A stretch of 43,502 bases of DNA, taken from positions 1 through 43,502 of IMG/VR virus record IMGVR_UViG_3300014325_000023. One strand, written 5' to 3'. The notes under the pieces are model-generated. The model made no database searches. It saw only the letters and a list, made by a program, of their open reading frames with translations, and was not told the DNA's origin. Below, piece by piece: positions 3,579 to 39,514 of this stretch. Position 1 is the stretch's first letter. The number at the start of each line of letters is the position of its first letter. The stretch is from a virus. Both the position numbers and the translations under genes were made by a program.

Positions 3579-3661
3579 GCCCGCCCCCGGTAGCCGCGGA
3601 AGTAGGCCCAGTAGAAGACGGCCAGCGAGGCCAGCGCGCCGATGATTTGCAGGGCGGTCAT
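3575..3661 (-). CDS. Very small single-pass membrane protein (28 aa)
   Basis: The frame gives 28 residues with a hydrophobic stretch, L-Q-I-I-G-A-L-A-S-L-A-V-F-Y-W-A-Y, and a basic C-terminus. The ATG at 3661 overlaps the stop of the RHH regulator gene (ATGA) and its own stop overlaps the GTG of the next gene, so it is held in a coupled chain. A good Shine-Dalgarno sequence, GGAGG, precedes the ATG. Function unknown. Confidence 0.55.
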   Translation of the reverse strand: MTALQIIGALASLAVFYWAYFRGYRGRA

Positions 3662-3828
3662 GACGCCTCCTTTGTGCTCTCTATGTGGAGCGTGATGGCC
3701 CGGCGTGCTTCCTGAGAGATGGTCCGTTCCCGCTGCTTGGCCGAGGCTTTGAGCTGTTCGTGCAGCTCGGTCGGCAGGCGAAGGGAGATGACGGAGATGC
3801 CGGGAGGGAGTTTGCGTTTCCTTGCCAC
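3658..3828 (-). CDS. Ribbon-helix-helix (Arc/MetJ-type) regulator, first gene of the early operon
   Basis: 56 residues from a GTG at 3828. The strand I-S-V-I-S-L-R-L-P is followed by helix E-L-H-E-Q-L-K-A-S-A-K-Q-R and helix I-S-Q-E-A-R-R-A-I, the classic RHH fold that binds DNA as a dimer through paired beta strands. I chose GTG 3828 over ATG 3849 because the -35 (TTGACT, 3858-3863) and -10 (TACACT, 3836-3841) elements put transcription start at about 3829, making the mRNA leaderless. A 14-base palindrome overlaps that start, so autorepression and early-operon control are likely. Confidence 0.8.
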   Translation of the reverse strand: MARKRKLPPGISVISLRLPTELHEQLKASAKQRERTISQEARRAITLHIESTKEAS

Positions 3829-3840
3829 TACCGGTAGTGT
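3812..3840 (+). promoter_or_regulatory. Possible promoter for the XRE repressor
   Basis: TTGCGT at 3812-3817, 17 bases, TAGTGT at 3835-3840 on the plus strand; the predicted start is at about 3847, immediately before the ATG at 3848. Matches to consensus are weaker than for the opposing promoter. The two -10 elements occupy the same bases, so only one promoter could be open at a time. Confidence 0.4.
3826..3839. promoter_or_regulatory. Palindromic operator CACTACCGGTAGTG
   Basis: A perfect 14-base inverted repeat lying over the -10 region and start point of the minus-strand RHH promoter, and just upstream of the plus-strand repressor. A two-fold symmetric site fits binding by an RHH or XRE dimer. 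Which of the two proteins binds it is not determined by the sequence. No second exact copy was noticed by eye. Confidence 0.65.
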
Positions 3841-3863
3841 AGCGGTCATGAACCGGAAGTCAA
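3836..3863 (-). promoter_or_regulatory. Early promoter for the RHH operon
   Basis: TTGACT at 3858-3863, a 16-base spacer and TACACT at 3836-3841 on the minus strand. The expected start point is about 3829, next to the GTG of the RHH gene, giving a leaderless transcript. The -10 overlaps the palindrome, so dimer binding would block it. Confidence 0.6.
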
Positions 3864-4324
3864 GCACCCGAAACCGTCACTTCCCCTCCGCTCCCTCGAC
3901 GCACGCGGCACTACTGGCTAGTTTCCGGCAGCAGATGGCCGATCACGCTCGTGGAGAGCACCTGCGGAAGCTGAGAACCGAGCTGCGCCTAAGCCAGGAG
4001 GACGCCGCTCACGAGATAGGCGTCAGCACCAAGTCGCTAAGGACTTGGGAGAAGGGCGGCCCCATCAAGTGGGAGAACGCGAAAGCGGCGGCCCGCTTCT
4101 ATGAAGTGGACCCGGAAGAGCTGGTGTCGCGCGAGCCCGGCGACCTCATGGAGTCGCTGAACGCGTCTCAGTCGGAGGCTCCGAACTTGCGACGAGTTGA
4201 AGAAGCGATCGAGGCCCTTCGGGCTGAGACTGCAGAGAGCCTAGATCTCCTACATGCCGAGCTACGAGCGATTCAGCGGCTTCTAGAGCCCTCCGGGCGT
4301 AAACAGAAAGCTGCTCGCAGTTGA
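3848..4324 (+). CDS. XRE-family repressor (probable lysogeny regulator)
   Basis: 158 residues. Residues ~37-92 form an XRE/lambda-repressor type helix-turn-helix (L-R-K-L-R-T-E-L-R-L-S-Q-E-D-A-A-H-E-I-G, then V-S-T-K-S-L-R-T-W-E). The C-terminal ~50 residues are a charged amphipathic helix likely to mediate oligomerisation; there is no S24 peptidase domain, so RecA-type self-cleavage is not expected. It is the only plus-strand gene in the left region and faces the early operon across the palindrome. An alternative start is ATG 3935. I chose 3848 for the predicted leaderless promoter. Confidence 0.75.
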   Translation: MNRKSSTRNRHFPSAPSTHAALLASFRQQMADHARGEHLRKLRTELRLSQEDAAHEIGVSTKSLRTWEKGGPIKWENAKAAARFYEVDPEELVSREPGDLMESLNASQSEAPNLRRVEEAIEALRAETAESLDLLHAELRAIQRLLEPSGRKQKAARS

Positions 4325-4382
4325 GCGCCCTGTTCATCGCAAACTGAGCCGCCGCCAGAACCCGCGCTTCCTCCGGTGTCAT
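4146..4382 (-). CDS. Small helical protein, antisense to the repressor 3' half
   Basis: 78 residues. The first ~45 are helix-forming (T-P-E-E-A-R-V-L-A-A-A-Q-F), the rest Ser/Pro-rich. A strong GGGAGG Shine-Dalgarno sits 6 bases before ATG 4382, and the upstream 32-codon frame ends in an ATGA overlap. About 180 bases lie antisense to the XRE gene, so either the two genes truly overlap tail to tail, or the minus reading is a shadow with a chance ribosome site. If transcribed, it would also act as antisense RNA on the repressor mRNA. Confidence 0.4.
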   Translation of the reverse strand: MTPEEARVLAAAQFAMNRALNCEQLSVYARRALEAAESLVARHVGDLGSLQSQPEGPRSLLQLVASSEPPTETRSATP

Positions 4383-5534: not shown

Positions 5535-6688
5535 TCGTATCGCCTCCCAGGGGCGAGGAGGCGGCCTGGGACGTAGGGAATTGGGGTCAACGTGAAGTCG
5601 TCGTTGGGCCAGAGGTGGGCCACAAGGAAGCCCTGCTGCCAGTCGGGCTGGTCGTCATATTGGAGGCCGTCTGCGATCTGGGCCATGCATCCAGCCTCAG
5701 CGCCGATGCGGGTCACGGTCGGGTCTTCGGGGTCGTGCTCGTCGTGCTCGGTCTTGTAGATCATCCGGAGCCGGTGGGTGTGGCCCTGAACGGTCGAGTG
5801 GCCGACCTTGGCGAGCATGTTCTGCGAGGCGTTTTTCCCCGAGAGGTAGCCGTGCCGCAGCGTGAGCTTCTTCCCGAGCAGGAGCTTCGCCCGGTTGTAG
5901 TCCTCGTCTATGCAGTCGATGCCAAGGTCGTCCAGATAGAGGAGACGGCGGAGGTGCTGGGCCGGCGTCAGATCCTCCTTGCCGTCGAGCGTCTCTCCTC
6001 CACCCGGTGCGACACCGTAGAGGCCCGGGGTGTTGTCAATCTGCTGGTGCTCCAGGCGGTCGTCGTGGTTGCCCGGGAGAATGGTCCAGAACGTGTCTGG
6101 GGAGGCGTGGCGGTAGTCCCGTAGGACGTGCAGGGCGGACCTCAGGCATTCGTTAGGCGTCGCTGGCGCCTTGCGCTTCCCCCGCCTGTGCCGGGAAATG
6201 GAGGAGAAGTCGAGCAGGTCCCCCAGGATCACCCCCTCATCCGGTTTCTCGTCTTCCAGCCACTGGAGAAAGCAGCTATGGAGCTGGCGATCCTCTAGCG
6301 GGCAGTGGTGGTCGCTGACGATGGCGACCTTGCGCGCTTCGTTCTCTTTGAGCTTCCGTCGTTTCGGCTTCGGAGGAGGCGTCCAATCGGAAGGGTCTGG
6401 CGGGAGGAGGAGCGACTTCTTCGGGTGATAGTCGAGGCGGAGTCTGAAAAAGGGCTTCTCTGGGTCCCCCCACCTCGTCGCGCTTTCCTTGTAAACGATG
6501 TATTCCTCAGGGTCCCTGCCGTGCTCCCGAAGGATCTGATCTGCCGTCCATGACGCCGGTAGCTCGTCCGGGTTGATGGTGATAGAGCCTGGCTCTTGGT
6601 CCTCGCCCCGTAGCTCTTTCAGCCAAACTTCGTTCAGCGTCGAGCGTTTGGCTCCGAGTTGCGAGCGGCCTGGACCACTGATTCGCAC
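5531..6688 (-). CDS. Calcineurin-like metallophosphoesterase
   Basis: About 385 residues from a GTG at 6688. The C-terminal domain holds the ordered metal-site motifs: S-D-H-H near 125, G-D-L-L-D near 156, G-N-H-D near 206 and G-H-T-H near 302. Together these identify a two-metal phosphoesterase acting on phosphodiesters or nucleotides. The N-terminal ~115 residues are phage-specific, with a proline/lysine-rich linker before the domain. No ATG exists near the start; a separate 34-codon frame (6634-6738) overlaps it. In phages such enzymes are placed with DNA repair or nucleotide processing, and the PD-(D/E)XK nuclease immediately upstream fits that. Substrate unknown. Confidence 0.8.
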   Translation of the reverse strand: MRISGPGRSQLGAKRSTLNEVWLKELRGEDQEPGSITINPDELPASWTADQILREHGRDPEEYIVYKESATRWGDPEKPFFRLRLDYHPKKSLLLPPDPSDWTPPPKPKRRKLKENEARKVAIVSDHHCPLEDRQLHSCFLQWLEDEKPDEGVILGDLLDFSSISRHRRGKRKAPATPNECLRSALHVLRDYRHASPDTFWTILPGNHDDRLEHQQIDNTPGLYGVAPGGGETLDGKEDLTPAQHLRRLLYLDDLGIDCIDEDYNRAKLLLGKKLTLRHGYLSGKNASQNMLAKVGHSTVQGHTHRLRMIYKTEHDEHDPEDPTVTRIGAEAGCMAQIADGLQYDDQPDWQQGFLVAHLWPNDDFTLTPIPYVPGRLLAPGRRYE

Positions 6689-6738
6689 CGCCCCGAGCGC
6701 AGGAGCTCGAGGCCGCGTTCTATCGTCTCGTCGGCCAT
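6634..6738 (-). CDS. Small helix-turn-helix-like frame upstream of the phosphoesterase
   Basis: 34 residues beginning MADETIERGLELLRSG, resembling the first helix and turn of a homeodomain-like DNA-binding motif, and ending where the phosphoesterase frame (shifted by -1) continues S-T-L-N-E-V-W. It could be an independent minicistron, or the displaced N-terminus of the phosphoesterase. Its ATG overlaps the nuclease stop by 19 bases. Confidence 0.4.
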   Translation of the reverse strand: MADETIERGLELLRSGRCESVVQAARNSEPNARR

Positions 6739-7046
6739 CGGCTCTCAGCGATCCATTCGATGCTGCGCTTCTCCCCCGACCCCTGCACCCGAGCAAGCCA
6801 GCGTTCGGCGTGGGGCGCCATCGGCGTTTCCACTACTTCGGACCGCTGGGTGCGGGTGAACCCTGAATAAACGGTCTTTCGGGGGCGGGCCTTCACCTCT
6901 ATCAGCCACTCACGGCCATCCGGGTTATGGGCAAGGAGGTCCCCCCCACCCTTCCGGTGTCGGCGAGAACCAACGGTCCAGCCTTCAAGCTCAAGCTGTT
7001 CCGCGACGAAGTTCTCAGCGGCGTTCCCTCGGCTTACGTGGGACAC
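6720..7046 (-). CDS. PD-(D/E)XK nuclease (Holliday-junction-resolvase or YraN-like fold)
   Basis: 108 residues from GTG 7046. G-N-A-A-E-N-F-V-A-E-Q-L-E near residue 10 gives the first-helix Glu. G-G-G-D-L-L-A then I-E-V-K-A (residues ~34-53) supply the Asp and E-x-K of the PD-(D/E)XK active site. The length suits small resolvase-type nucleases that cut branched or damaged DNA. It sits between the lysis genes and the phosphoesterase, overlapping the latter's upstream frame. In late phage regions such enzymes trim recombination intermediates before packaging; that role is inferred. Confidence 0.75.
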   Translation of the reverse strand: MSHVSRGNAAENFVAEQLELEGWTVGSRRHRKGGGDLLAHNPDGREWLIEVKARPRKTVYSGFTRTQRSEVVETPMAPHAERWLARVQGSGEKRSIEWIAESRWPTRR

Positions 7047-13583: not shown

Positions 13584-14785
13584 TACCGACCTAGCGAGTT
13601 TTCGTTCGGGTCTTCTCTAATGAGCTGGTTCTGATGGCGCTTGCGGTAGCGCTTGATCGCTCGCGCGGCGTCCGAGGGGCTAACTTCACTTTCTGAAGCG
13701 AGGATGCCCTGGAGTTCGGCCCACTCGGCTGCGTTTCTCGGTGGCCCCCCCGCTGCGTTGATAAGGGCATTGAGCGAGGAGAGCGCGTTGTTCAGACCCT
13801 CTGGCGTCGGGTGTGAGGTGCTGTCGGAACCCGGGTGCAGCGCCTCGTAGCGGTCGGTCTGCGCATTCTTCGCCGCGGTGTTCGCGTTCTGCTGGTCGAT
13901 ACCAAGCCCAGCTTCCTTCAGCTTCTGTTCTTCCAGGTGTTCTTTGTATTCGCGCTGAGCCTTTGCAGCTTCGGCTTTGGCGCTGAGCGCCTGGCCTTTG
14001 GCTTCGAGGTGGAAGGCGTCTTTCTTCAGCTTTAGTTCGCGAGCTTCGGCGGCTTTCTGGCCGAGGGTTTTGGTCGCGTATTCGCCCCGCTCCTTGCTCA
14101 GATCCCGGAGGTCGTTGCGGATCGACTGTCCGCGTTTTGACTCTCCCACCATGCCGGCGACTCGTTGGCCGGAACCGATCCTGCGCTGGTTGGCTAGGTA
14201 GCCGTACTGATTAGCCCCTTGCCCCGCGGTAACAGCTCCGAGGGTTCCGAGCTGGGTATTCCGCTGGGAAAGGGCAGCGTTGGCAGTCCCCGTGGTCGCA
14301 GCGTTGGCGGCGCTCGCGTCCTGCCCTCGGAGGGCGGCGGCCTGAGACTGGGAGGCGTTCAGGGCTGAGGTGTTGGCCGTGTCTACCGCGGAGCCGGTGT
14401 TGATCAGCCCTTGGGTCTGTGCGGCCGCATCGGCGTATGCCTGCTGCGTCTGGGCCTGCGACTGACCGACGGTCTGGAGGTATTCATTCCACCAATTGCC
14501 TACGTCCTTGACCCGTTTTTCAGAAGCTCGGAGGTTGGCCTTGGTCTGCTGTTCCACCGGGTGGTAGGCAAGATTCGTGGCGGCGGTGGTTTCCTGGTGG
14601 AGCTGTTTGTTTGAGGGCAGTTGCAGATAGGCGTATTCGTTCCGCCCCTGCTTGGGGGCCTGGCTGGACTTGTCGGGGATGACGGTGTAGGAGGGCCCGT
14701 TCTTCTTCTGGGAGTTCCCCTTGTTCTTGCCCGGGTTCTTGCTCTTGTTCGGGTTGGGGTAACCCACGCCGCCGTTGCCAGCCAT
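13583..14785 (-). CDS. Probable internal virion protein, Ala/Gln-rich coiled coil
   Basis: 400 residues. A low-complexity K/N/G N-terminus (residues 1-40) is followed by long Ala/Gln-rich helices (e.g. Q-S-Q-A-Q-T-Q-Q-A-Y-A-D-A-A-A) and heptads through ~330. This composition is typical of internal core or ejection proteins of podoviruses. It starts two bases after the stop of the next gene upstream and is followed directly by the 1431-residue protein, as in the gp14-15-16 order of T7-like phages. Sequence similarity to these is not claimed. Confidence 0.55.
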   Translation of the reverse strand: MAGNGGVGYPNPNKSKNPGKNKGNSQKKNGPSYTVIPDKSSQAPKQGRNEYAYLQLPSNKQLHQETTAATNLAYHPVEQQTKANLRASEKRVKDVGNWWNEYLQTVGQSQAQTQQAYADAAAQTQGLINTGSAVDTANTSALNASQSQAAALRGQDASAANAATTGTANAALSQRNTQLGTLGAVTAGQGANQYGYLANQRRIGSGQRVAGMVGESKRGQSIRNDLRDLSKERGEYATKTLGQKAAEARELKLKKDAFHLEAKGQALSAKAEAAKAQREYKEHLEEQKLKEAGLGIDQQNANTAAKNAQTDRYEALHPGSDSTSHPTPEGLNNALSSLNALINAAGGPPRNAAEWAELQGILASESEVSPSDAARAIKRYRKRHQNQLIREDPNENSLGR

Positions 14786-15649
14786 CTATTTCGCTTTCCT
14801 TCCGGGTCCGACCGCGATTTTTTTGGTTTCCGTTTTGCCCGTCTTGTTGTTTTTGACCTTGACCGTCCCCGTGCTCGGGGTTCCTTGGAGGTAGGCAGGT
14901 AGTGGGTTGGATGCCCCACTACCTCCTCCCCCACCGGCCGGCGACTCTTCCGGTTCGAGTTCGGCGCGCGAAGCGTTTTCGATTGACTTCCAAAGAGCCG
15001 CGTTGACTTCGTCCTGGCGCTGGTTGAACGCAGCAGTTCCTTCGTCCATGTTCTGCTGAAGCGCCTGCCGATACAAGCCTTCGAGGCTGCTTCGTTCCTG
15101 CGCGCTGTGTTCACGGTTGTAGGTTTCCGCGTTCTGAGAGGAACCGGAGTAGAGCTGGCCCGCTGAGGCTAGGGAGGTGCCCGCTGCGCGGTTGGCGCGC
15201 TGGTAGCTCTTCTCGAGAAGGGAGGCTCGGGAATAGGGGTTCGCGTTGTAGTCGTTGAACCCGGGCTCCAAGCCGTATTCCTGCTGCAGGATGCCCTTCT
15301 TTCCCTGCAGCCCTAGGAGCGTGTTGTTGTAGCGGGCGTTCGCGCTGTTGACTGAAGTCTCGTAGGCGGCATCCCACGGGCGAGGAGTAGAGGAGCTCGA
15401 GGCCGCGCCGGCAGACGAGGGGGCAGGGGCCGCCGGGGGTGAACTGTACGGAGCGCCCCCGTAGCCCTGCGCCTTCTCTCCCCAGGGTTTGTCTTCCCCC
15501 CAGTAGGGATAGAGACCGCTGGTCTTGTTCCCGGTGATCCCAGTGGTGGGACCCTTCCCAGCGCTACGGGGTGCGGAGGTCCCACCCGTGGCGGGGCGGG
15601 CCTGCGGTTTGACCGCTTTCTGTGAGAATGCGCGTGCGAGTTGTGCCAT
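14786..15649 (-). CDS. Probable internal virion protein
   Basis: 287 residues. The N-terminal ~90 are low-complexity (Ala/Pro/Ser/Gly). The middle, 95-215, is helical with Gln/Asn and Tyr (R-Y-N-N-T-L-L-G-L-Q-G-K-K-G). A Gly run, G-G-G-G-G-S-G, and a basic Lys-rich tail close the protein. It is first of the three-gene internal protein block. Composition and place give the call; no family. Confidence 0.5.
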   Translation of the reverse strand: MAQLARAFSQKAVKPQARPATGGTSAPRSAGKGPTTGITGNKTSGLYPYWGEDKPWGEKAQGYGGAPYSSPPAAPAPSSAGAASSSSTPRPWDAAYETSVNSANARYNNTLLGLQGKKGILQQEYGLEPGFNDYNANPYSRASLLEKSYQRANRAAGTSLASAGQLYSGSSQNAETYNREHSAQERSSLEGLYRQALQQNMDEGTAAFNQRQDEVNAALWKSIENASRAELEPEESPAGGGGGSGASNPLPAYLQGTPSTGTVKVKNNKTGKTETKKIAVGPGRKAK

Positions 15650-16045
15650 TTAGGTTGCCTTGATCATGAAGCCGAACGCAGAATCAACCTGCGCGCCGGT
15701 GTTAGGGACGGCGGTGAAGATTTCGAAGACTTTTTGGGCCGTGCCCGTGGACCTGGCGTAAGCGCCTCCATATGCGATAGCGACGGCCACGCCAGCGCTC
15801 GCGAGTTCAGTAGAGAGGGTGATTTTGTAGGCGCCGAGCGCGGTTTTTTCGGAGGTGAAGCCTTCTCCGGATTCTTTTTCGCCATTCGCTTTCACCGCAC
15901 CCGCGAGAGTCGGCTTGGCTAGGTTTTTGTCGGATACCGTTTTCTGGGTGAGATTCGCCCCGGCAATAGGGAACTGCCTGGCTATTGCGTCTAGGCATTC
16001 CTGGGTAGCAGAGTCGTTAACGGTTGACGGAAGGGGGAGAGTCAC
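15650..16045 (-). CDS. Small structural protein
   Basis: 131 residues from GTG 16045, preceded by a GAGG ribosome site. Beta-rich and Ala/Gly/Thr-rich (A-G-V-A-V-A-I-A-Y-G-G-A-Y-A), like many small tail or head surface proteins of phages. It starts next to the plus-strand pair at 16062. The precise role is unknown. Confidence 0.55.
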   Translation of the reverse strand: MTLPLPSTVNDSATQECLDAIARQFPIAGANLTQKTVSDKNLAKPTLAGAVKANGEKESGEGFTSEKTALGAYKITLSTELASAGVAVAIAYGGAYARSTGTAQKVFEIFTAVPNTGAQVDSAFGFMIKAT

Positions 16046-21613: not shown

Positions 21614-22291
21614 TTAGGACCCCTCTGCCTCCATGACTTCCTTCATGTACTTCTGTCGAACGTCAGGATCAGAGAGATCTAGTTTCTCCTCACCCGCAGC
21701 TCCGACTGGCGCTTTTGGTGCTTTCTTGGTGGTCAGGTACTCGCTAAGGCGGGCTTCATCGCGCGCCTTTAGAGCTCTGACTGCACCCTCTAGGTCTGGA
21801 CGCCCGTCCTCAAGACGGTTGTTCAGGGCGTCGTTTTTGACGAAACGCTTGTCCTCAGCGGAGAGCTTTATGTCCTCCGACTTTTCGAGTTCACCGATCG
21901 TGTTGTCGATGTACTGGCGCTCCAGCTCTTGGAACTGCTTTTGCTGTTCGGCTTCCTCTTTCGAGGAGAGCTGGGATTTGATCGCCTCCAGTTCCCGCGC
22001 TAGGCGGTCCGTGGGGTCCTCAAACTCGTCTACTTCCGCCGCTTCTTCGGCTTGCTGGACCTCTACGCCCAACTGCTGAAGAGCCTGCACCTGTGCCTCG
22101 GGGCCGTGATCGCCCCTAGCCGCAGCGATTAGCTGTTGGCCTCGGGTGTATTCCGGGACCAGCGACTCATAGCGCTGCTGGTAGTCAACTGCGGGTTGCG
22201 TGTCCTCTGCGGGTTTCGTCTCCTCGACGGCCGCATCGGGCGATGGCGTGTCCTGAACCTCGTCAGGGGCCTGGGTTGCCTCATCGGGCAT
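21614..22291 (-). CDS. Capsid scaffolding protein
   Basis: 225 residues. A Pro/Asp/Glu-rich N-terminus is followed by a long, highly charged helical body (Q-Q-K-Q-F-Q-E-L-E-R-Q-Y) and a C-terminal basic/acidic helix (R-Q-K-Y-M-K-E-V-M). Low aromatic content and extensive coiled coil between portal and coat genes are the hallmarks of a scaffold. An AAGGAG ribosome site is 9 bases upstream. No protease gene is nearby, so scaffold exit without cleavage is possible. Confidence 0.8.
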   Translation of the reverse strand: MPDEATQAPDEVQDTPSPDAAVEETKPAEDTQPAVDYQQRYESLVPEYTRGQQLIAAARGDHGPEAQVQALQQLGVEVQQAEEAAEVDEFEDPTDRLARELEAIKSQLSSKEEAEQQKQFQELERQYIDNTIGELEKSEDIKLSAEDKRFVKNDALNNRLEDGRPDLEGAVRALKARDEARLSEYLTTKKAPKAPVGAAGEEKLDLSDPDVRQKYMKEVMEAEGS

Positions 22292-22374
22292 GTGTATGCA
22301 CTCCTTGTGTAGCCGGGGCCTGAAGGCGTGTCCGGCGTGATGGCCGGGGCCGCGTTCTCAGCGCGGGTGTCCCG

Positions 22375-22392
22375 TTAGCGCGTGTGCGCTAA
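22375..22392 (-). other. Hairpin after the portal gene
   Basis: TTAGCGC-GTGT-GCGCTAA: a perfect 7-base stem with a 4-base loop, overlapping the portal stop codon. The ~80 bases to the scaffold start are GC-rich with further short inverted repeats. It may slow transcription or stabilise mRNA ends. Confidence 0.4.
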
Positions 22393-24419
22393 GACTGTGA
22401 GAAAAGTTCGGTCTGGTCGGGCATCGGCGGCGGCGATGGTTTCCGCGCCGCGTTGTTCATCCCGAGGGCTTCGGCGGTCTGTTGCTGCGCCTGTGCCGCC
22501 TCAGCGTTCTGTTTCGCTTCGATCTGCAAGAGGGCGTCGTAGTAGGTGTTGGCTGCCTCTTGAGATGGCGGGTCGAGGTCGTCGTACTCGGTGGACTGCA
22601 TCCAGTCCTCGAATACGTCTCGCTGCACTTTGATCTTGTCGAAGGGCCGGGGCATCCAGCCGGGGACGTATTCGTTAGGGACCTGTTCGACTTCGCCGGT
22701 TTCTGGGTTTTCGACTTCTTCGAATCCAGGGTCCTCGTTGCCGAACGGCCGGCGGGGTGAGGAGTTGAAGAGGACTTCGGGGCCTTCGGTGATCTTGAGG
22801 ATGATCAGGTTGGCTCGAGCTACGGCCCGTTCGTAGGTCTCGACGAGTGATTCGGCGGTGCCGTTGTTGATCGCTGCCATCGCCGCGTGGGGAGAGATCC
22901 AGCCCCTGTCTGCGAAGGCGAGGATCTTCTTTTCGATCCCTTCGCGCGTCCGCGGTTCCAGGGAGTCGGGGGCTACGCGAACGTCGGTCTCGTCGCAGAG
23001 CTGGGAGCCGTAGAAGTCGGCGATAGGCTCGATGCCTCTCTCCCCTCGCACCTTCAGGAGCCGGGGCTCCGTGTAGTGGCGCTGGACGAGATAGAGGCAG
23101 TGGCGGGCCAGGCGGGCGTCGAAGCGGGCGAGGTTCTTCAGGAAGTTGGCGCGGCGGGAAGCGTCCTTTTCAAGGAGGGCCTGAATCCCCCGGCCCGATT
23201 CCACCTGCGAGGGAATGTCGTTCTGGGCAGCGATGCGGGCCATATCCGCAATCGCTTCCTCCTTCAGTTTGAAGAGCTCCGCGGGGATCTGGGGGACCTG
23301 GCGCCAGACCGCTTCTCCCGACCCCCTGGCGTTGAAGACCGCTCCCGGCTCGTCGGTCAGCTTGTCGAGCAGCTTCACATTCTTGAGGAGCAACTGCGGG
23401 TTGAGGGCGAGGTTCACCCACTCCGAGGTCTTGGAGACGGCATGGTTGACCTGCCGCTGGGAGTCGAGGAGGTGTCGCACCAGGCCCGACCCCCTCTCCT
23501 TGGAGGGGTCCTCGGCATAGGTCAGGCGGTGAAGGACTGGCTCATCGCAGATATTCCCTTCCCCGTCTACGCATGGGTAGGGCCGCTCGGGGACGATGAC
23601 ACGGTCGTTCGCCATCGTGACCCACCGTCCAGAGGGATTCTGCGGGGAGGGGCGCTCTAGGTAGTCCTTGACGAGGACGAGTTTCGACTGGGGGTTGACC
23701 TCGGTTTCAACGTCCGAGGTTTGAGCGTCGGCATTGAGATTCCCGCCGACGTATCCCTCCATCGCCATGACTTCCGAGATGTCCCGCGCCTGTTCAAGAC
23801 CGATCCAGCGCGACTGCTCAAACTTAATCCCCGGCTCCCCAAAGACTTCATTGGGGCCATAGACCCGAATGGCGATCTCGCCCTGTCCGACAAGGCCGCC
23901 TTCTCCGTCATCGAGATAGGGGCCCACCGTGGAGTCCCAATAGGGCCACGCAAATCCTTCATCAGCGACCACCGCGTAGCGGACTACCTGCTCGAGGGCC
24001 CTGTCTACGCCCCACTTTTCGTAGCCGTAGTAAAGAACCTTCCGGGCCAGTCGAGCTGCTGAGATGCGGCGAGGCTCCGTGCCGGAAGGGGAAACTTCGT
24101 AACCGGGAACGCGCTGGGTGGCAGCGGCTACCTCGGTCTCGACAATGTCGAAGATGAAATTGCGGACCGCCCTAACCCGGTGGGGTGCCTTGCCACCGGC
24201 CTCCCCATAGGAGCTGGTGGTGGTCGGGAGGGATTTGAGGGCGTTCTTGGCATCGAGGTAGCGGTACTGTTCCCCGCGCGCGTGCGCCAGGCACTCGTTC
24301 CGCTTGGGCGCGTCTTCGCGCATCGCATCCCGTCCCCGCTTCATGCGGGCCGAGATGTCCTCGGGTACCTCCATTTTGTCCGGGTTTATGGCCCGTTTGA
24401 CGGCGTCGAGAACCGCCAT
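22389..24419 (-). CDS. Portal protein (P22-type)
   Basis: 676 residues, the usual length of podovirus portals. Early helices R-M-K-R-G-R-D-A-M-R and E-Y/L-A-H-A-R-G-E-Q-Y-R-Y, a stem-like region, a central R-H-L-L-D-S-Q-R-Q-V-N-H segment and V-N-L-A-L-N-P, and a long C-terminal acidic/Gln-rich tail match P22-type dodecameric portals. It would form the DNA channel at the unique vertex and dock terminase and adaptor. It overlaps the upstream gene as TAATG, and scaffold then coat follow. A strong family fit by pattern; no alignment was possible. Confidence 0.85.
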   Translation of the reverse strand: MAVLDAVKRAINPDKMEVPEDISARMKRGRDAMREDAPKRNECLAHARGEQYRYLDAKNALKSLPTTTSSYGEAGGKAPHRVRAVRNFIFDIVETEVAAATQRVPGYEVSPSGTEPRRISAARLARKVLYYGYEKWGVDRALEQVVRYAVVADEGFAWPYWDSTVGPYLDDGEGGLVGQGEIAIRVYGPNEVFGEPGIKFEQSRWIGLEQARDISEVMAMEGYVGGNLNADAQTSDVETEVNPQSKLVLVKDYLERPSPQNPSGRWVTMANDRVIVPERPYPCVDGEGNICDEPVLHRLTYAEDPSKERGSGLVRHLLDSQRQVNHAVSKTSEWVNLALNPQLLLKNVKLLDKLTDEPGAVFNARGSGEAVWRQVPQIPAELFKLKEEAIADMARIAAQNDIPSQVESGRGIQALLEKDASRRANFLKNLARFDARLARHCLYLVQRHYTEPRLLKVRGERGIEPIADFYGSQLCDETDVRVAPDSLEPRTREGIEKKILAFADRGWISPHAAMAAINNGTAESLVETYERAVARANLIILKITEGPEVLFNSSPRRPFGNEDPGFEEVENPETGEVEQVPNEYVPGWMPRPFDKIKVQRDVFEDWMQSTEYDDLDPPSQEAANTYYDALLQIEAKQNAEAAQAQQQTAEALGMNNAARKPSPPPMPDQTELFSQS

Positions 24420-33272: not shown

Positions 33273-33545
33273 TTAGGTTCCTAGTTGTTTGCGGGCCATC
33301 CGTTCGGCGACGGGGGTCGTGTAGCCCTGGCTTTTCAGTTGGCGGGTGAGGTAGGCAAAGCGAACACCCTCCGGGTCCTCAACCGCCATATCGGCGAGGT
33401 CTTCGATTGCGTCGCGGACCTCCAGCAGCCCGTAGTCCGTGCGGATCATGCGAGCGATAGAAATCCCCCGCTTTTTCGCTTCGTGTGCGAGGGCCGCCTT
33501 TTCAGCCTTCGTAAGCCTCAGTTGGTAGACCTCAGTGCGGGGCAT
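33273..33545 (-). CDS. Ribbon-helix-helix-like protein
   Basis: 90 residues from ATG 33545, which overlaps the upstream gene by 14 bases. V-Y-Q-L-R-L-T-K-A-E-K-A-A-L-A-H-E-A-K-K-R-G-I-S opens like an RHH DNA-binding fold (strand, helix, helix), followed by an acidic helix and a basic tail. It is at the head of the late structural operon, so it may regulate late genes. A longer upstream frame to 33656 has no support. Confidence 0.55.
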   Translation of the reverse strand: MPRTEVYQLRLTKAEKAALAHEAKKRGISIARMIRTDYGLLEVRDAIEDLADMAVEDPEGVRFAYLTRQLKSQGYTTPVAERMARKQLGT

Positions 33546-33753
33546 GGGTGTCCCGTGCGTAGAAAGCCTCCGCAACGCGAGGACGACCTTCGGAGTCCCT
33601 AGAGGCCCTAGCCTGCGCTTTGATCTCTTCGCGAGTCGGAGGGGGCAAAGGCACACCGCCCTCTAGAGCCGACAGCTCACGCTCAAGGTAGTCGTCCTCG
33701 CGCCTCTGGAACTCCTGCCAGCCGCCCGGCAGTCGGGATACGTCAATCTTCAT
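33532..33753 (-). CDS. Hypothetical late-operon protein with strong ribosome site
   Basis: 73 residues from ATG 33753, preceded by AAGGAGG 7 bases upstream, one of the best ribosome sites in the window. Charged helical sequence (F-Q-R-R-E-D-D-Y-L-E-R-E-L) with a Pro-rich turn. No family. The strong site and the repeat-rich region just upstream suggest a promoter or regulated leader here. Confidence 0.6.
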   Translation of the reverse strand: MKIDVSRLPGGWQEFQRREDDYLERELSALEGGVPLPPPTREEIKAQARASRDSEGRPRVAEAFYARDTHAPH

Positions 33754-37911: not shown

Positions 37912-39045
37912 TCATTGCGCCTCCGCTCCGAACAAATCCCGAACACCTCGAGCCTCGGCGATGTAGTCCTCGATGCTCCGACGCTCTGCGGGGTTGGAGT
38001 CAATGAGGTGCTGATAGGTCCGCATGGACTCCTGCGGGGAGTGGCCGAGCTGCTGGGCTATCTCGATGTGGTTCCAGCCCGCCGCGGCGCAGAGGGTCGC
38101 GCAGGTATGGCGAAGGTCGTAGGGCTTTAGCGTCGAGCCGAGCCCCACGTCTTCGGCGGCTTGCTTGAAGCTGTAGCCGCGCGATCCGTCCGGCCGGATT
38201 CGAGAGCGCCAGTTGTCCCAATCGTTCTTCGTCCAAGGCCGGCCGTCTCTCTTGCCGAAGACGAGTCCAGACGTAAGCGCGGTGTCTTCCCAGGCGCTTA
38301 GATCGCCGCTCACGGGCTCGGGAAGGTAGACCGTCCGCTTGTATCGGTCTCCCGTCTTAGATCCAGGGCGAATCTCTCCTCCTGAGTTCTTCTGGATGAT
38401 CGTTAGCCGGTCTCCTACGTGCTCCCAATCCAGTGCTAGGGCGTCTTGGGGGCGGATGCCGACGTAGGCGAGGACTGAGATCAGTGTCGCGGAACCCAGG
38501 TCCTCTCGCTCAAGGAACCAGTTGCGGAGCGCCTCCACCTCCGTGGCCGTGAGCCAGCGATGCTCACGCTTGCGGTAGCTCGGGCGCTCAAGGGCGAGAA
38601 CGGGGTTTACATCGAGGTATTCGTAGGGCAGCACGGCCCGTTTGAGGATCTGGGAGAGAAGGGACTGCGCCTTGCCGAGAACTGCCGGCCCTGCGCCTTC
38701 GGACAGACGCTCGTCCTGCCATTCCTGCAACAGGCGGGGGCGCAGTTCTGCTACCGAGAGATGCCCGAGGCTGGGCAGGATGTGGACTTCGAGCCACTCT
38801 TGGTACTTGGCCCTAGTCGAAGCTTCGAGGTCCGTGCGGGCGGCGAGCCACTGCGCGGAGAAGATCTCCAGCGTCGGCGCATCCTGGCCCCGGACGAATC
38901 CCCTCCCAGCTGCTAGCCGGCGCTCGACCTCAACCTTGAGCGACTGCGCCTCTGACTTCGTCTTACAGCTCTTGGACTTCGGCCTTTTGTTCTCCCGCCA
39001 CTTGCACTCCCAGGTGCCGTGTTTCGTCTTATGAATGCTCGCCAT
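37912..39045 (-). CDS. int: Tyrosine integrase
   Basis: 377 residues. N-terminal arm-binding domain ~1-55 with W-E-C-K-W, core-binding helices ~60-155, catalytic domain 160-377. Catalytic residues: Arg198 (G-I-R-P-Q-D), Lys230 (S-K-T-G-D), Arg312 with Y-D-L-R-H-T (first His of H-x-x-R replaced by Tyr, a known variant), His335 (Q-L-G-H-S) and Tyr344 (M-R-T-Y). It integrates the phage at the tRNA-Gly and, with excisionase, excises it. ATG 39045 overlaps the xis stop (TGATG), so the two are coupled. Confidence 0.95.
   Translation of the reverse strand: MASIHKTKHGTWECKWRENKRPKSKSCKTKSEAQSLKVEVERRLAAGRGFVRGQDAPTLEIFSAQWLAARTDLEASTRAKYQEWLEVHILPSLGHLSVAELRPRLLQEWQDERLSEGAGPAVLGKAQSLLSQILKRAVLPYEYLDVNPVLALERPSYRKREHRWLTATEVEALRNWFLEREDLGSATLISVLAYVGIRPQDALALDWEHVGDRLTIIQKNSGGEIRPGSKTGDRYKRTVYLPEPVSGDLSAWEDTALTSGLVFGKRDGRPWTKNDWDNWRSRIRPDGSRGYSFKQAAEDVGLGSTLKPYDLRHTCATLCAAAGWNHIEIAQQLGHSPQESMRTYQHLIDSNPAERRSIEDYIAEARGVRDLFGAEAQ
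37928..37945 (-). repeat. Integrase arm-type site, right
   Basis: CCGAACAAATCCCGAACA, same layout as the left arm, but here inside the last codons of integrase (encoding R-D-L-F-G). Distance to the core about 50 bases. Confidence 0.55.
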
Positions 39046-39332
39046 CAGCTTGCCCTTTCGAATTGGACGACTTTGGCGCCGAAGCTACTTTGCCTCCGGG
39101 CTCGCGGTCTAGGCATCGGGCTCTCGGCTTTCGCTCGACGCGGCTTTGGCCCGCTTTCAACCCAGGCGACAAGAGCGGCTTGCGTCGTCACCCAGCGGCC
39201 CCCGAGCTTGTGGAAGGGGCTATCGGGCTGAGGGGCGATGCGGTAGAGCGTGGACTTGCTCCAAGGCGTGCATTCGGCGACTTCCTCAATTGAGAGAATC
39301 GCTTCCTCGAGCTGTCTCTCTATCCCCTTCAA
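39045..39332 (-). CDS. Excisionase-like DNA-binding protein
   Basis: 95 residues from TTG 39332, chosen because the stop of the upstream gene overlaps it as TTGA. L-S-I-E-E-V-A-E-C-T-P-W-S-K-S-T-L-Y-R plus G-G-R-W-V-T-T-Q-A-A-L-V-A-W is the winged helix of the HTH_17/excisionase type. A basic tail follows. Next to integrase, it should direct excision. ATG starts further upstream would add an implausible long segment. Confidence 0.75.
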   Translation of the reverse strand: MKGIERQLEEAILSIEEVAECTPWSKSTLYRIAPQPDSPFHKLGGRWVTTQAALVAWVESGPKPRRAKAESPMPRPRARRQSSFGAKVVQFERAS

Positions 39333-39514
39333 GGCTCTGAATCCTCTTGAGTGATGGGCTGGGTGGAGCGGCAGCGCACGTTGGACCGCACAGGATGGGC
39401 GGTGGGAGGGCGAGACGACGGGGAGAGCAGCGGCCGCACCCCGGTCCCAGGTTGGCTGTGAAGTTTGCCGCAAACCGAGCACGGCTTCTGCTTCTCTCGC
39501 TCGCTCGTATCCAT
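39329..39514 (-). CDS. Small Cys-pair protein
   Basis: 61 residues: K-P-C-S-V-C-G-K-L-H then a Ser/Pro-rich, low-complexity remainder. The start ATG is 2 bases after the previous stop. A C-x2-C ... H half-ribbon is all that is visible. Confidence 0.5.
   Translation of the reverse strand: MDTSEREKQKPCSVCGKLHSQPGTGVRPLLSPSSRPPTAHPVRSNVRCRSTQPITQEDSEP

Follow-up and report, generated by a model that had tools for sequence, protein, structure and literature searches.

A putative phage immunity switch on one bidirectional promoter with a symmetric -10 element

In a virus record of 43.5 kb and 62% G+C (the window, that is, the whole stretch of 43,502 nucleotides that was analysed), a ribbon-helix-helix (RHH) gene and an XRE-family repressor gene diverge from start codons some 20 bp apart, between which lies a single -10 heptamer readable on both strands. 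We propose, with a probability of roughly 0.7, that this locus serves a temperate, soil-type phage as its immunity (lysis-lysogeny) switch, with a single bidirectional promoter at its core. The case is drawn from sequence comparison with three related phages (G001, G002 and G003), in which the start codons, the heptamer and a palindrome symmetric at 12 of 14 positions are kept in an identical register.

Results

The locus and its phage

The features used in the analysis were as follows.

3658..3828, minus strand: RHH protein, 56 aa, GTG start at 3828; first gene leftward (the lytic direction), in the position of Cro
3812..3817, plus strand: -35-like TTGCGT of the XRE promoter, 17-nt spacer to TAGTGT 3835-3840; within RHH codons
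3826..3839, both strands: CACTACCGGTAGTG, a perfect 14-bp palindrome read from the sequence; putative single operator
3835..3841, both strands: symmetric -10 heptamer TAGTGTA, reading TAGTGT on the plus and TACACT on the minus strand
3848..4324, plus strand: XRE-family repressor, 158 aa, ATG start; N-terminal HTH at about residues 30-95, helical C-terminal part
3858..3863, minus strand: -35-like TTGACT of the RHH/lytic promoter, 16-nt spacer to TACACT 3841-3836; within XRE codons
4696..4727, minus strand: strong intrinsic terminator, 14-bp stem and T run; predicted to end the operon that arrives leftward just ahead of the switch
37912..39045, minus strand: tyrosine integrase (PHROG 1, E 9.5e-54)
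39045..39482, minus strand: excisionase-like protein (PHROG 66, E 1.2e-7)

The minus strand carries nearly all long genes of the window, and XRE is the sole clear plus-strand gene. The presence of an integrase and an excisionase-like gene indicates a temperate phage, in keeping with the lysogen assumed in the first-pass annotation, and the RHH/XRE pair is supported as an immunity module. The sequences matching the two ends of the window lie about 0.3 kb from each other in G002, and the leftward direction from RHH (3828) therefore continues round a circle; the terminator at 4727-4696 on the minus strand shields XRE from leftward transcription upstream.

No relatives came up when genome contigs were scanned with XRE or with a terminase alignment, and a tblastn search of phage records found single weak matches and no orthologues. 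At 22% identity, the portal protein of the window points towards actinobacterial podoviruses, and the host may be an actinobacterium. Early, lysis and integration genes of G002 are 90-100% identical to those of the window, and most structural genes are just 20-50% identical at the protein level; the structural genes of G001 and G002 share 65-83% DNA identity. Judged by these identities, the window, G001 and G002 are strongly mosaic in a modular fashion.

A -10 element shared by two divergent promoters

The hexamers TAGTGT (plus) and TACACT (minus) have 3836-3840 in common, so that two promoters sharing -10 bases, TTGACT-16-TACACT and TTGCGT-17-TAGTGT, can be read in the sequence as the first-pass annotation had them. 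At A3836 and T3840 the -11A and -7T of opposite strands pair reciprocally, the arrangement that defines symmetric -10 bidirectional promoters. With the canonical +1 taken as 7 nt after the -7T, the predicted starts fall at 3829 and 3847, which are 18 bp apart (18-20 bp with the start codons) and no more than 1 nt from the GTG at 3828 and the ATG at 3848 to which they had earlier been assigned. Bidirectional bacterial promoters, characterised by divergent transcription start sites (TSSs) separated by 7-25 bp, most often have them 18 bp apart, and the polymerases that use them are mutually exclusive (PMC10268837, PMC12825309). Overlapping -10s with reciprocal -11A/-7T pairs belong to this documented class, which supports the view that the divergent promoters overlap and exclude each other and agrees with the earlier claim that only one can be open at a time.

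The same TANNNTA is retained in G001, G002 and G003. The automatic promoter scan detected the minus promoter alone (9/12; 1 seen against 0.2 expected), and the plus -35 of the window is weak. The corresponding plus -35 elements are TTGCGC-17 in G001, TTGCCG-17 in G002 and a poor TGTTCG-17 in G003, and the minus ones are TTGACT-17 in G001 and TTGCGT-17 in both G002 and G003; conservation of these elements is confounded, since both lie within coding sequence. TAGTGTA at 3835-3841 is the only TANNNTA of the window with ORF starts 5-12 nt off on both sides.

Identity and start codons of RHH and XRE

The XRE protein passes the profile cut-offs (HTH_31, 38.9 bits against 27; HTH_3, 37.7 against 23). 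The window RHH protein scores 22 bits with Pfam RHH_5 against a cut-off of 26 and has a FitA-like_RHH match, and its relatives reach 27.1 against 26 with RHH_5 (G001) and 25.2 and 27.4 against 20.5 with RHH_1 (G002 and G003). Its PHROG matches include Arc-like repressors, and the best is annotated as a partition ATPase. AlphaFold models were of low confidence (pTM 0.33 and 0.29).

The GTG at 3828 and the ATG at 3848 each lie 7 nt beyond their own -10. In the relatives the starts are fixed by in-frame stops, which stand in the RHH frame 24 nt before the GTG in G001 (TAA) and 27 nt before the ATG in G002 and G003; the XRE frame of each relative is closed 12 nt ahead of its ATG. Distances from -10 to start (minus/plus) are 7/7 in the window, 7/11 in G001, and 10/11 in both G002 and G003, and the predicted leaders are therefore 0 to about 4 nt long. 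With the starts so fixed there is no space for a Shine-Dalgarno site, and none was found for RHH or XRE in the window, in which many other genes have one. Both genes thus have the marks of leaderless transcripts, which are a TANNNT about 12 nt ahead of the start codon and no Shine-Dalgarno site. The earlier description of both mRNAs as leaderless holds strictly, as a prediction, for the window, but most RHH and XRE starts of the relatives would have about 3-4 nt. Other starts considered were ATG 3849 or GTG 3867 for RHH, excluded by the in-frame stop of G001, where there is no alternative start, and 3719 for XRE, to which the window frame is open upstream, excluded by the stops in G001-G003.

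The XRE 3' end is overlapped in antisense by a 78-aa ORF at 4146-4382 on the minus strand, for which there is a strong Shine-Dalgarno site (AGGGAGGTGCGCGATG). Related ORFs occupy the equivalent position in G001 (22196-22417), G002 (5947-6183) and L036 (6365-6661), and a Pfam search found no match for the ORF; it is a possible regulator or antirepressor.

Depletion of TANNNT

TANNNT occurs 113 times in the window against 338±15 expected from dinucleotide shuffles, and 90 times against 282 when codons were shuffled among synonymous positions only. The depletion is 3-4.5-fold on both strands in the window and in G001-G004 (L008-L013, L040-L045), and neighbouring spacings, used as gap controls, are much less depleted. 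Among comparison phages it is two-fold in Pseudomonas phage D3112 and weak in lambda and Arthrobacter phage Jasmine. Codon bias and dinucleotide composition are excluded as its source by the synonymous-codon shuffles and the neighbouring-gap controls. Since TANNNT is depleted even against synonymous-codon shuffles, the host probably uses it as its working -10 motif, and its retention at the switch is meaningful.

The full TANNNTA is rarer still, with 2 seen in the window against 18 expected, one of them the switch, and a single one in each of G001, G002 and G003, always at the switch, where 8-20 per genome are expected. Among the listed window genes, a TANNNT within 60 nt upstream was found only for RHH (7 nt), XRE (7 nt), 6720-7046 (6 nt), 33273-33656 (28 nt) and the integrase (36 nt). 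This rarity and placement make a chance occurrence at the switch very unlikely. The depletion has the look of selection against accidental promoters and may say something about the promoter grammar of the host. In E. coli, avoidance of accidental promoters is known (PMC5906472). TANNNT dominates among the -10 motifs of Mycobacterium, where transcripts are termed leaderless when the TSS lies at most 5 nt from the start codon (PMC3898074); leaderless genes are predicted to make up about 20% of the total in actinobacteria (PMC3160421).

The RusA-like gene at 6720-7046 (minus strand), with TAGCCT 6 nt before its GTG, is the sole other listed window gene with a TANNNT-leaderless-looking start.

The palindrome

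The palindrome had been described at first pass as perfect and as covering the centre of the promoter pair. It is perfect, but its centre at 3832.5 is shifted 5.5 bp from the promoter axis (3838) towards RHH, so that it spans the RHH start codon, the predicted TSS and most of the RHH -10, and, on the XRE promoter, the stretch from about -9 to -22. Taken alone it was dismissed as evidence, since the window holds 2 perfect 14-bp palindromes and shuffled windows 4.1±2.1. In the same register to the heptamer, however, the symmetry is 14/14 in the window and 12/14 in each of G001, G002 and G003, and the next best nearby 14-mer reaches 8. Heptamer, palindrome and starts as an ensemble exceed chance, given the rarity of the heptamer, its flanking starts on both sides and the recurrence of heptamer and palindrome in register in three relatives.

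No second copy of the palindrome with up to 2 mismatches was found in any of the four genomes; the locus has one palindrome, not the several operators of CI/Cro regions, whether as OR1-OR3 or as dispersed copies. Two operator types could be distinguished. Type A (window and G001) is CACTACC-GGTAGTG and type B (G002 and G003) is near CAGTACG-CGTACTG, the G002-type operator being CAGTTCGCGTACTG; the types diverge at symmetric half-site positions 3 and 7.

Exchange of a specificity cassette between related phages

A pattern search of viral contigs with TACAYTACCGGTAGTG gave 21 matches, among which the gene arrangement was present in G001 only. In the N-terminal part of XRE, the window is 76% identical to G001 and G002 is 73% identical to G003, against 27-28% for all other pairs; in the C-terminal part the pairing is different, the window being 84% identical to G002 and G001 66% identical to G003, against 18-23% for the others. 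Among the four phages, each of the two DNA-binding halves is thus found joined to each of the two C-terminal halves. RHH identities follow the first pairing (window-G001 75%, G002-G003 77%, other pairs 27-36%), and both RHH and operator type track the XRE DNA-binding half in 4/4 phages, the only four that show the layout and made up of two related pairs (window/G001 and G002/G003). The integrases of the window and of G002, a putatively heteroimmune relative, are 100% identical and long stretches exceed 90%, yet the two phages diverge exactly at the switch cassette. This pattern resembles an exchange of immunity specificity, and it indirectly supports a putative superinfection immunity conferred by XRE.

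In G004, whose integrase is 94% identical, the repressor faces a Cro-like HTH/XRE gene and not RHH (L044, about 14700-15650). No TANNNTA was found at the G004 switch, where closely packed -10-like sequences are present; this phage counts against the proposed reading. To judge from G004, the RHH slot is exchangeable with an HTH gene.

The palindrome might instead be used by XRE only, with RHH next to it by position alone and acting elsewhere, as an Arc/Mnt-like anti-immunity regulator or a partition- or antitoxin-type protein. RHH proteins are often found in partition or toxin-antitoxin modules, and the partition ATPase annotation of the best PHROG match points the same way. However, neither ParA nor a toxin was recognised beside RHH, and the RHH type matches the operator type in every one of the four phages, which renders this alternative unlikely.

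Discussion

A proposed mechanism for the switch

We favour an immunity switch in which both regulators use the one palindrome. The heptamer is symmetric for both strands, and RNA polymerase could therefore load on it in either of two orientations. Rightward loading would yield a leaderless mRNA for the XRE repressor, and leftward loading a leaderless mRNA for RHH and the lytic genes behind it. XRE, as the sole opposite-strand gene, would be the CI-like repressor, and the layout suggests RHH as a Cro-like first lytic gene that would lower XRE. The single palindrome would be the operator of both. A dimer bound to it would cover the lytic TSS and -10 together with the -10 and spacer of the XRE promoter; as elements of both promoters would be covered, the lytic promoter would be shut and XRE autoregulated. 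RHH, the XRE DNA-binding half and the operator would move between phages as one specificity cassette.

The locus had been called "bistable" on the strength of the overlap, and this does not follow. Where bidirectional promoters have been measured, their basal transcription is too weak for polymerases to compete, and the effect of competition is to reduce noise, not to raise it (PMC12825309). Given this low basal activity and noise reduction, any nonlinearity would have to stem from the regulators; their levels would set the state, and polymerase exclusion may sharpen the choice and need not create it. Moreover, one operator over both -10 regions predicts that both promoters are repressed, and stable lysogeny therefore needs a further asymmetry, none of which is visible in the sequence. 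It is doubtful, and only tentatively suggested, that the decision is made chiefly by the orientation of polymerase loading on one symmetric -10, biased by unrelated XRE and RHH proteins competing for one operator, with the specificity unit (RHH, operator and repressor DNA-binding half) mobile as a cassette in a genome that purges most other TANNNT.

The same considerations bear on another possibility, namely that the promoters are as described and form no true switch. RHH and XRE would then each do no more than repress their own synthesis from one bidirectional promoter of low activity, and immunity or the lysis decision would depend on another locus, such as Int/Xis or the conserved ORF that overlaps the XRE 3' end in antisense. 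In favour of this, a palindrome over both -10s points to joint repression, low basal activity with little competition is usual for bidirectional promoters, and the search of four genomes found no second operator. We nevertheless regard this as quite unlikely: XRE stands alone as a clear gene on the opposite strand, the lytic genes run one way from RHH, and the cassette is swapped between phages with identical integrase, as immunity regions are. That the arrangement is an artefact of chance or ancestry, with an unreal plus promoter, incidental symmetry and XRE transcribed with a leader from farther upstream, is very improbable. In its favour, chance alone would supply perfect 14-bp palindromes, the plus -35 is weak and the window XRE frame is open to ATG 3719. 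Against it, the frame is stopped 12 nt before the ATG in G001-G003, the upstream region is RHH coding sequence devoid of a Shine-Dalgarno site, and TANNNTA is otherwise purged.

Relation to known systems

The proposed immunity switch recalls immI of phage P22 (Arc/Mnt), where RHH regulators likewise act at divergent, closely packed promoters; immI differs in that an XRE partner is absent at that locus and an antirepressor gene is present. As in CI/Cro regions, the phage carries an integrase and its HTH repressor gene is divergent from that of the first lytic regulator; in contrast to them, that regulator in the window is an RHH protein and not a Cro-type HTH protein. The first-pass annotation had called the locus unlike lambda, which is half right. 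A divergent repressor and lytic regulator are shared with lambda and PY54, cI is already leaderless in lambda, and in PY54 both cI and cro are leaderless from divergent promoters, as determined by RACE (PMC4488713). PY54 has a single Cro operator, like the single palindrome here (PMC4488713). The promoters of lambda and PY54, however, have no common -10, Cro is an HTH protein there, and lambda has three operators per region.

The symmetric -10 promoters of Warman and Grainger (PMC10268837, PMC12825309) share with the window one -10 for both strands, the -11A/-7T pairing, predicted TSSs about 18-20 bp apart and steric exclusion. The window differs from this class in the predicted leaderless mRNAs of opposed phage regulators and in a dedicated palindrome offset to one side, and our literature search found no phage immunity example of a symmetric -10 promoter. 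Mycobacteriophage BPs rep/cro shares an HTH repressor, divergent Prep/PR, a palindromic operator (12-bp in BPs) and a high-GC, actinobacterial-type setting, but has separate promoters, several operators around the genome and an integration-dependent repressor form (PMC4557955). The Pc/Pr conjugation switch of pLS20 has overlapping divergent promoters of unequal strength, with a regulator binding over and beside both, and differs in serving plasmid conjugation, in DNA looping and in having no RHH partner (PMC4207663). Each part is therefore already known: bidirectional promoters, leaderless divergent cI/cro, overlapping divergent promoters and a palindromic operator. Among the papers searched, none described a locus that combines RHH in the place of Cro, a symmetric -10 and 2x2 cassette exchange.

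If the reading is correct, this would be about the smallest phage decision switch that can be drawn, with one -10, one operator and about 20 bp between its two start codons. The locus would also give a clear biological role to bidirectional promoters, so far described mainly in enteric bacteria, and would allow one to ask whether polymerase exclusion helps all-or-none lysogeny or, as in E. coli, damps noise. With its 2x2 set of naturally chimeric repressors, this group of phages offers a ready-made specificity experiment, and the TANNNT purge suggests that phage sequence alone can expose the promoter grammar of a host.
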